NCBI GenBank assembly: GCA_947371015.1
Contig: CANBNK010000024.1
Coordinates: forward strand, 1 to 52,084
Length of the DNA: 52,084 bases
Reading direction: 5' to 3'
Source: Acetobacteraceae bacterium
GTDB taxonomy: Bacteria; Pseudomonadota; Alphaproteobacteria; Acetobacterales; Acetobacteraceae
Position numbers and translations under genes: made by a program. This document shows positions 31,443 through 33,264 of this stretch, one piece after another. The stretch's first letter is position 1; each line of letters opens with the position of its first letter. The notes under the pieces were generated by a model that was not told the DNA's origin, ran no database searches, and worked only from the letters and a program-made list of their open reading frames with translations.

Positions 31443-31606
31443 GAGTCTCTCAGACGCTCAGGGGAGCGTCCGACAGACGCTAAGTTGTTGTTTGAGCGGC
31501 TGATTCACGCCGCCGGTGATTCCACCGCCGACGATCAGACGCTAAGCCGTTGTTTGAGCGGCTGATTCACGCCGCCGGTGATTCCACCGCCGACGATCAG
31601 ACGCTA
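31443..31606. repeat. Dispersed two-hairpin repeat, copy 3, with internal 62-bp tandem duplication
   Basis: The first hairpin pairs GACGCTC (31453-31459) with GAGCGTC (31464-31470) around AGGG. The second part occurs twice in tandem: 31475-31536 and 31537-31598, 62 bp each with two mismatches. A final AGACGCTA (31599-31606) follows. Each tandem unit has the arms CTGAT/ATCAG and CGGTG/CACCG. The TAG stop of the small membrane protein gene is the CTA at 31604-31606, inside the element, exactly as in copy 1. It lies between the converging cyclase and small membrane protein genes. Confidence 0.85.
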
Positions 31607-31834
31607 GTCCCGCCCCCAGCGCCAGCGCCAGGGCGCGCTGCTGCGGGCGCGGCTGAGGGCGACGAAGGCCGAGGCAACCGGCACCACCACCAGCCAGCGC
31701 CACGGGTCCGGCAGCCGCGCCACCGCCAGCGCCACCACCAGGCCGCACCCAAGGGTCAACGCCCAGCCCTGCCAGGCAATGGGCGTGGCGCCATAGCCGA
31801 AGCGCTTCGGCGCGAACCAGGGCTGTTGTGGCAT
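31604..31834 (-). CDS. Small two-helix membrane protein of unknown function
   Basis: A 76-residue protein from the ATG at 31834, with GAGGA eight bases upstream. After a hydrophilic start (MPQQPWFAPKRFGYGATPIA) come two hydrophobic helices (WALTLGCGLVVALAVARL; WLVVVPVASAFVALS) joined by a short turn DPWR, then a basic, tryptophan-rich tail RARSSAPWRWRWGRD. The topology resembles small inner-membrane hairpin proteins. Its stop codon is provided by the adjoining repeat. A perfect alphaproteobacterial SOS box lies 76 bp upstream of its start, so damage-induced expression is possible. I do not recognise a named family. Confidence 0.72.
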   Translation of the reverse strand: MPQQPWFAPKRFGYGATPIAWQGWALTLGCGLVVALAVARLPDPWRWLVVVPVASAFVALSRARSSAPWRWRWGRD

Positions 31835-32193
31835 GGCTGCTTCCTCGTCACGGGCCGAACGGTCGGGCACGGCGGCGGCGGCGTCAATCACGCCTTGAAC
31901 AGACCATATGTTCCATATATGTTCTGAATGACGCCAAGGCCTCCCGCTCTTTGCCAATCGCATCCGCCCCCAACCCGCGGCCGGTCCCTGCCGCGGATAG
32001 CCCCGGGGTATTTGTCCGAAACCAGCATCGCCCTGCCGGCACCGCGGCTTCCGGGCCGACCCGTGCCTATTGGCCGTCCCTCGCCCTTCCCGGTTACCCA
32101 CCGGCTGTCCAGGCCATTTGTCCGAAGCTGGACCATGCCGCGGCATGGCACGGCTTGCTCCGGCGCGAGTCGCCGCGCTACCACGGAACCCCA
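31835..32193. other. 360-bp regulatory intergenic region between the small membrane protein and the DNA methyltransferase
   Basis: No convincing gene. It holds an AT-rich promoter-like patch with an SOS box (31910-31924), a repeated 11-mer ATTTGTCCGAA at 32010-32020 and 32116-32126, and a perfect 16-bp palindrome CCATGCCGCGGCATGG at 32133-32148. A candidate plus-strand promoter is TTGAAC (31895-31900) and TATGTT (31918-31923), 17 bp apart, overlapping the SOS box. Confidence 0.6.
31910..31924. promoter_or_regulatory. LexA SOS box, alphaproteobacterial type
   Basis: GTTC-CATATAT-GTTC matches the alphaproteobacterial LexA consensus GTTC-N7-GTTC exactly, with an AT-only core after the first C as in many natural boxes. 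It lies in a divergent intergenic region. On the minus strand it is 76 bp upstream of the small membrane protein ATG. On the plus strand it overlaps a candidate -10 element and lies 270 bp upstream of the DNA methyltransferase. Which gene it controls is not decided by sequence. Confidence 0.65.
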
Positions 32194-33264
32194 ATGATCA
32201 AATATATCGGCTCCAAGCGCGCGCTGCTGCCGCAGATCCTGGCGGCCATCGCCGGCGTGTTGCCTCCCGGCCATACGGTGCTGGACCTGTTCTCCGGCAC
32301 CTCCCGGGTCGGCCATGCGCTGAAGGGCGCCGGCTACCGCGTGCTGGCCAATGACCACAACGCCTACGCCCATACGCTGGCCACCTGCTACGTCCAGGCC
32401 GATGCTGAAACCTGGGCCGACCAGGCCCGCCTGATCCTGGCCGACCTGAACCGGCTGCCCGGCGCCGCCGGCTGGTTCACCCAGAGTTACTGCGTGGAAA
32501 GCCGCTACCTCCACCCTGACAACGGCGCCCGGATCGAGGCCATCCGCAACGCCATCGCGGCGCTTGCGGCCGAGCCGGAATTGGAAGCCATCCTGCTGAC
32601 CGCGCTGCTGGAAGCCGCCGACCGGGTGGACAGCACCGCCGGCCTGCAGATGGCCTACATGAAGCAATGGGCGCCCCGCGCGCTGCGCCCGCTGGAGCTG
32701 CGGCTGCCCGCGCTGCACCCGCGCCCCGCCGCCGGCCCCTGCCGCGCCACCTGCGCCGATGCCGAGGACGCCGCCAGCCTGCAAGCCGACCTGGCCTATC
32801 TGGACCCGCCCTACAACCAGCACAGCTACCTGCGGAATTATCATGTCTGGGAAACCCTGGTGCGCTGGGACGCGCCGGAGACCTATGGCATTGCCCGCAA
32901 GCGCGCCGACTGCCGCACCCGCATCTCCGCCTTCAACAGCAAGCCCGGCCTGGCCCCGGCGCTGGCCCGCACCATCGGCCGGCTGCGCGCGCCGATTTTG
33001 CTCGTTTCCTTCAACGACGAAGGCTTTGTCGGCCGCACCGCCATGGAAGCCATGCTGGCGCACAAGCCGTATGTCCAGGTGCTGGAGATTCCCTACAACC
33101 GCTACGTCGGCGCCAAGATCGGCATCCATAACCCGAAGGGCGAGAAGGTCGGCACCGTCGGCCGGCTGACCAACCTGGAATACCTGTTCCTGGCCAGCGA
33201 CCAGCCGCTCGCCCTGCCGCCAGCGCTGCTTCAGGGCCAGGCCGCCGAACCAGCCGCGGCCTGA
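32194..33264 (+). CDS. Orphan D12-class adenine-specific DNA methyltransferase
   Basis: Transfers a methyl group from SAM to N6 of adenine in DNA. The 356 residues run from ATG 32194. The D12-class start MIKYIGSKRALLPQILAAI is followed by the SAM-binding motif DLFSGTSRVGHAL (31-43), an ANDHNAYAHTLA acidic loop, and the catalytic DPPYNQHSY at 204-212. The central part is a helical target-recognition domain. SKPGLAPALARTIGRLRAPILLVSFNDEG follows the catalytic motif. No restriction enzyme gene is adjacent, so it acts alone, perhaps in epigenetic regulation or as a relic of a restriction system. The recognition site cannot be predicted. Confidence 0.9.
   Translation: MIKYIGSKRALLPQILAAIAGVLPPGHTVLDLFSGTSRVGHALKGAGYRVLANDHNAYAHTLATCYVQADAETWADQARLILADLNRLPGAAGWFTQSYCVESRYLHPDNGARIEAIRNAIAALAAEPELEAILLTALLEAADRVDSTAGLQMAYMKQWAPRALRPLELRLPALHPRPAAGPCRATCADAEDAASLQADLAYLDPPYNQHSYLRNYHVWETLVRWDAPETYGIARKRADCRTRISAFNSKPGLAPALARTIGRLRAPILLVSFNDEGFVGRTAMEAMLAHKPYVQVLEIPYNRYVGAKIGIHNPKGEKVGTVGRLTNLEYLFLASDQPLALPPALLQGQAAEPAAA

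Follow-up and report, generated by a model that had tools for sequence, protein, structure and literature searches.

A LexA-type SOS box in the 52,084-nucleotide stretch of Acetobacteraceae DNA analysed here (the window) does not look like a shared switch of its two neighbouring genes, and appears instead to head a non-coding array unit found in many genomic places. We propose, with a probability of roughly 0.4, that this unit is SOS-repressed and that its transcript would display a sense-strand motif common to SOS mRNAs. The features concerned are the following, in window coordinates:

31604 to 31834, minus strand: gene of a small, apparently membrane protein of 76 aa (neighbour), an ORF with no Pfam or PADLOC match
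31895 to 31923, plus strand: promoter-like TTGAAC-N17-TATGTT reading toward the array, with a -35 TTG geometry found in 26 of 32 boxed promoters
31910 to 31924, plus strand: SOS (LexA-type) box GTTC-CATATAT-GTTC, found by pattern, of the type that stands before lexA, ssb, imuA and two radical-SAM genes
31944 to 31971, plus strand: leader CCGCTCTTTGCCAATCGCATCCGCCCCC, identical in G003 and, by reading, similar in L013, L017, L070, L186, L192, L195 and L328
32010 to 32023, plus strand: array motif copy 1, ATTTGTCCGAAACC, from the motif search
32115 to 32128, plus strand: array motif copy 2, CATTTGTCCGAAGC, from the motif search
32153 to 32181, plus strand: promoter-like sequence of the methyltransferase itself, GCTTGCTCCGGCGCG...CGCGCTAC, conserved in five aligned genus genomes
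32194 to 33264, plus strand: D12-class adenine DNA methyltransferase gene (neighbour, outside the unit), from ORF, Pfam and PADLOC

The box GTTCCATATATGTTC, reported in an earlier note on this DNA, is real, and a pattern search identified it as the single GTTCN7GTTC match of the whole window. When the window was shuffled 100 times, 45 of the shuffles had one match or more (mean 0.50), so that the box taken alone is weak evidence, near chance for 52 kb. At the scale of the corresponding genome (G000, 5.37 Mb) it does stand out: the pattern occurs 83 times versus 47 for the reversed pattern, and 19 of these 83 boxes have the form GTTCN4TATGTTC. According to the available part of PMC12700426, GTTCN7GTTC is the alphaproteobacterial LexA operator and the Caulobacter consensus. 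Its presence before lexA (L037; Pfam LexA_DNA_bind), ssb, imuA and the two radical-SAM genes supports the assignment of the window's box to the LexA type of this genome. The rightward TTGAAC (31895-31900)-N17-TATGTT (31918-31923) described in the same note is also present and is promoter-like by consensus only, with a -10 overlapping the box. The locus thus combines a GTTC-N7-GTTC operator, an overlapping promoter-like sequence and a boxed lexA elsewhere in the genome, as in the alphaproteobacterial LexA regulon (available part of PMC12700426), whereas the operator of the window would drive a non-coding motif array and not a protein gene. The same geometry recurs in 32 boxed promoters (17 of arrays and 15 of DUF4096 genes, from G000 and genus relatives): a -35 TTG was found 15-19 bp before TATGTT, at its best position, in 26 of them, compared with 4.5% in upstream-shuffled controls, and CTTG at a spacing of 17 or 18 bp in 22. 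Because of this recurrence, the arrays look transcribed from SOS-repressed promoters.

Between the box and the methyltransferase stand two copies of the 10-mer TTTGTCCGAA (32011-32020 and 32117-32126), missed by the earlier note, and box, leader and motifs are all kept at this locus in G003. G000 contains 52 copies of the 10-mer versus one of its reversed pattern, distributed among boxed and unboxed arrays, orphan DUF4096 genes, positions in or after parC, positions after lexA, imuA and rnhB, and elsewhere. G003, G004, G005, G095 and G056 contain 77, 48, 40, 65 and 33 copies, respectively, and controls 0 to 3, while the 12-mer CATTTGTCCGAA was detected in 36 of 147 genomes, usually as a single copy, and reaches three or more copies in ten.

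Box and motif are associated, on one strand only. In G000, at least two copies lie close together at 13 loci. At eight of them an exact box lies on the same strand no more than 300 bp upstream, for a chance expectation of 0.0023 per locus (binomial 1e-18, with loci treated as independent). Seen from the boxes, within the G000 stretches fetched, a same-strand TTTGTCC follows within 800 bp in 12 of the 19 TATGTTC boxes (7 having none) versus 0 of 14 other boxes, and the opposite strand showed one copy within that distance, 200 bp from the L012 box. The boxed loci devoid of TTTGTCC in the stretch fetched include ssb/uvrA (L034), parE (L033), the rSAM-UDG gene of L018, the helicase of L031 and L035, by reading a nucleotide reductase, among others. 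Across 41 array loci from G000 (13), G003 (16), G004 (6) and G005 (6), chosen for holding the motif and with orthologous loci counted apart, the core TTTGTCC is present in 157 copies on one strand and 0 on the other; a box lies on the same strand, up to 300 bp upstream, at 26 of these loci, and on the opposite strand, up to 600 bp away, at none. Because orthologous and tandem copies were counted as independent in these statistics, the p-values are too small; the loci from G003, G004, G005 and G095 (eight in G095) were picked for holding the motif and are part of the motif lists. In G003, the box was found at nine of 19 motif loci. Transcript direction was assignable, by our own sorting, for 36 of the 52 copies of G000 (16 were not), and all 36 are in the sense orientation, 26 in box-led loci (one with a one-mismatch box) and 10 in or after ORFs.

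Spacers differ between array loci while box and motif stay exact, and the spacings between copies range from 26 to more than 100 bp (26, 38-42, 57-69, 74-78, 93, 105 and 124 bp), with no helical period by eye. By reading, the copies fall in different reading frames; a peptide-coding role was rejected on these different frames (FVR, LSE, CPK) and on spacings that are often not multiples of three. A DNA uptake sequence was considered and dropped for too few copies. As to an antisense partner, the exact complement was considered, which gives again the 52 known sites. By reading, the neighbourhood of several loci is preserved in similar form in G003 (comM, MFS, lexA and parC). Upstream of a comM-like gene (Pfam ChlI; L106 and L184) lie CCTTATATATAGGACTAT and a pair of motif copies at a 26-bp spacing, an arrangement kept in G003. 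In L189 of G003, a box is followed by an array of ten TTTGTCC copies at exactly 42 bp, and its counterpart in G000, by reading, is the four-copy array L030 before an MFS gene.

The motif is also carried by protein-coding loci, several of them SOS genes. Sense copies stand after lexA (L037, L190 and L330), after imuA in L025 (L183 in G003), whose box lies 7 bp before the ATG and whose ImuA match is below the NCBIfam cut-off (85.8 of 150 bits), and after rnhB in L032 (by reading), L185 and L329, the L032 copy lying behind a boxed PA0069 radical-SAM gene. Others are located inside parC (assigned by NCBIfam for the L101 gene) and inside a DUF6352 gene. In Belnapia (G056), copies occur inside an rSAM_link_UDG gene, whose G000 counterpart is boxed, and inside a PA0069 gene; among the seven copies inside ORFs tested there, L219 had the better score when read antisense to its ORF.

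These observations suggest a mechanism in which the box would be the operator of a LexA-repressed promoter for a short non-coding unit, from about 31930 to 32150, containing two UUUGUCCGAA copies. The unit would be one of many: further box-led arrays contain the motif, and so do orphan DUF4096 genes and parC loci (inside the gene or behind it), and it also follows the SOS genes lexA, imuA and PA0069-rnhB. Wherever its orientation is assignable in G000, it is sense. A trans-acting factor, which may be a DUF4096 protein, would read the motif in SOS transcripts. Upon LexA cleavage, the stand-alone arrays would be made and would supply many extra motif copies, acting as a damage-induced RNA sponge or hub. 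LexA binding, induction, an RNA-level action of the motif and the factor's identity are what we infer from a sequence in which the box, the promoter-like sequence, the array, its strand bias, the shared motif and nucleotide-level conservation can be directly read. Rfam covariance models, applied at the gathering score to 20 array loci, returned no family match, the only hit being a tRNA in L102. In predicted RNA folds, motif accessibility was 0.508 versus 0.470 in flank-shuffled controls (56 of 87 above; Wilcoxon p 0.019), a slight excess that is weak evidence and does not decide between RNA and DNA.

The orphan DUF4096 genes bear on what may read the motif, and also on the main competing explanation. 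Four of the 19 TATGTTC boxes of G000 immediately precede genes encoding about 195 aa. The first half of these products corresponds to the DUF4096 domain known from IS5-type transposases, a domain that we take to belong to the IS427 group of the IS5 family. The full-length orphan scanned matched DUF4096 only, with NF033580 below its cut-off over residues 20-110, and no DDE family was matched in the two orphans scanned, one of which is a fragment. Around the orphans L305-L308 and L316, the search for flanking terminal inverted repeats found only 13-14 of 16 pairs, at scattered distances. DUF4096 relatives were detected in 43 of 80 genomes at an E-value of 0.001, many of them ordinary transposases, and similar orphan copies are found again in different species of the genus. 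Of 57 orphan DUF4096 genes from ten genera, 54 retain the DNA string TTTGTCC, and genes without the core were found in L166, L169 and L179. At the core, 54 of 56 Leu residues use the rare codon TTG, versus 55 of 1522 elsewhere, and a T precedes the core in 56 of 57 orphans though the residue is D, L, V or I. Because it is kept through a rare Leu codon and despite a changing preceding residue, the core in these genes is, on sequence grounds, under nucleotide-level constraint. Within the 160 bp looked at upstream, our count gives an exact GTTC box for 18 of 26 orphans of the genus and 2 of 31 in other genera.

An alternative that we consider possible, albeit unlikely, is that TTTGTCC is a duplex-DNA binding site of the orphan DUF4096 proteins, which would be the DNA-binding halves of IS5/IS427-type transposases without DDE. 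Placed behind SOS promoters, the arrays would then serve as clusters of operators, roadblocks or decoys, and each DUF4096 gene would regulate itself through its internal copy. The ends of related elements bear on this possibility: 24 transposase loci with a related DUF4096 domain were examined, several of them copies of one element, and, in line with an expectation written down beforehand, GGACAAA (the reverse complement of TTTGTCC) lies in an element end in eight, among which are L124 (right end only) and L125 (both ends, e.g. CTAGGCCGCGTGGACAAAGCG), the nearest two to the orphans at the protein level. By contrast, nine of the 24 have other terminal repeats, and the ends of the remaining seven were not resolved. 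Because some related transposase elements carry GGACAAA in their ends, DUF4096 proteins are possible readers of the motif. The DDE-less domain content of the scanned orphans and the co-occurrence of orphans with the motif in the motif-rich G095 (65 copies), G056 (33) and G079 (8) are also in favour of DNA sites, but G002 has two CATTTGTCCGAA and no orphan found (in a genome 85% complete), the strict strand bias is not expected of simple duplex sites, and the spacings lack a helical period by eye. While the insertion-sequence-end match argues for DNA, we favour the sense-strand RNA motif because of its strand bias and its placing inside and after SOS genes. Extending this RNA reading, Acetobacteraceae SOS transcripts would carry a second, RNA-level code, with sense UUUGUCCGAA in or after the lexA, imuA, radical-SAM, parC and orphan DUF4096 mRNAs being read by a trans-acting factor, perhaps DUF4096 proteins as transposase DNA-binding domains that have become regulators, and this factor would be titrated by the damage-induced RNAs of LexA-boxed stand-alone arrays, including that of the window; we regard this complete scheme as a tentative and, taken as a whole, rather unlikely proposal.

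The model first put forward for this DNA, in which the box governs the divergent membrane-protein gene, the methyltransferase gene or both, and either would be a damage-response gene, now appears improbable. The genes themselves were largely well described: the plus-strand gene indeed encodes a DNA methyltransferase (D12-class adenine; Pfam MethyltransfD12, E 2.8e-30) that matches PADLOC type II models (best PDLC03298, E 3.3e-148), with its ATG 270 bp from the box, and the minus-strand gene has the announced 76 aa and an ATG 76 bp from the box, its two membrane helices being assigned by reading only. Neither this 76-aa protein nor the DUF4096 orphan had a PADLOC match. Methyltransferase relatives with 63-67% identity are common in Brevundimonas, the gene being therefore not restricted to Acetobacteraceae. 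The predicted SOS control of either gene as such was not supported, as the box is largely not conserved upstream of orthologues. Among 80 methyltransferase loci kept from named genomes, 77 of which have a recognisable start and three less than 200 bp upstream (including the G001 copy, 71 bp), two of the 77 have a GTTCN7GTTC in the 1 kb before the gene: one is G003, of the same genus and with the same element, and the other is an unrelated minus-strand match at -737 without the element. The membrane protein was found in G000, G003 and G004, and weakly in G012 and G013, and among its four parsed copies (the G013 copy not being one of them) the box is present in G000 and G003 and absent in G004 and G012. 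In G004, a genus relative whose two-row alignment is reliable only in its last 70 columns, the two genes adjoin with no box between them, and in G002 and G005 the methyltransferase has other upstream neighbours and no box. The box as a conserved switch of either gene was rejected on these counts (2 of 77 and 2 of 4 loci). In addition, the separate promoter-like GCTTGCTCCGGCGCG...CGCGCTAC, 13-41 bp before the methyltransferase ATG, is kept in five of five aligned genus genomes, box or not, and the box accompanies the array in many unrelated places. In favour of neighbour control, the box holds the same place relative to the membrane-protein ATG in G003. LexA binding could also affect the two adjacent genes in G000 and G003, and transcription starting at the box may run on into the methyltransferase gene. 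SidA and DidA are small membrane division inhibitors of Caulobacter. Compared by description only, the 76-aa protein resembles them as a small, apparently membrane protein beside an SOS box (for DidA, available part of PMC4211646), with the difference that the box is here not kept with the orthologues.

Also improbable is a mobile MITE-like repeat, in which box, leader and motif would be the parts of a small non-autonomous element and any function incidental. It would account for the leader common to several loci and for a unit present in G000 and G003 and absent in G004 between the same two genes. However, no inverted repeats flank the unit in the window, where they were searched for, spacers mostly differ around an exact box and motif, several loci have, by reading, similar neighbours in G003, and coding genes of ten genera have the motif conserved within them. 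A chance LexA-like match without function, suggested by how common one match per window is in shuffles, is very improbable given the same-strand association of box and array in G000 (1e-18) and the box kept in G003.

Beyond the genus, the motif is found behind other types of promoter. In Belnapia and others, it follows GTTC boxes or, at some loci, AGGA-N6-TCCT palindromes. Perfect AGGA-N6-TCCT palindromes occupy the position of the SOS box before DUF4096 genes of other genera (L123, L163-L165, L170 and L176) and also stand before motif copies in other genera (L203, L204, L213 and L216). In G095, the GTTC box was found at one of the eight array loci fetched. There, L318, L319, L323 and L324 share, by reading, a third promoter-like stretch, about CTCGCGCC...TACACTC, before single motif copies. 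Because the G095 arrays fetched are mostly unboxed and some promoters of other genera have AGGA-N6-TCCT, SOS control of motif loci is not universal, judging from these sequences, and the motif is the constant part, with the SOS box as one form of control.

Compared with described systems, the operator is of the known alphaproteobacterial LexA type, while the arrays match no Rfam family in the 20 loci searched and resemble established repeat classes only in part. A Klebsiella small RNA regulator of cell division has been discussed with LexA and the SOS response (available part of PMC10907235); the likeness is a small RNA discussed with SOS in another organism, and in that part we noticed no motif array and no motif shared with SOS mRNAs or with a transposase-derived family. 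REP sequences and their TnpA-REP (RAYT) domesticated transposases, palindromes handled by an HUH enzyme in the available part of PMC8266576, offer the likeness of dispersed short repeats tied to a transposase-derived protein. We did not assign the arrays to these REPtrons, the motif being non-palindromic by reading and the protein matching DUF4096 only, with no catalytic domain. With the IS427 group of the IS5 family (available part of PMC3281130), the orphans share the DUF4096 domain, and some relatives end in GGACAAA. The orphans scanned do not qualify as IS5/IS427 insertion sequences, with no DDE match and no flanking terminal inverted repeats. In the literature searched, which mostly excludes subscription journals, we found neither the motif nor arrays of this kind described, nor any SOS-linked DUF4096 orphans. 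If our reading is true, the SOS response of a bacterial family would have a layer beyond LexA, in which the motif is carried by the SOS transcripts themselves and multiplied by non-coding arrays, with a link to transposase remnants kept for regulation. This would provide a testable case of insertion-sequence parts becoming host control circuits.

Finally, positions 31474-31597 of the window consist of two tandem 62-bp repeats with the core GATTCACGCCGCCGGTGATTCC. A 19-mer of this repeat has nine copies in G000 (control 0), and, by reading, a copy related to the GATTCACGCCGCCGGTGATTCC-core repeat lies upstream of the methyltransferase in G002.
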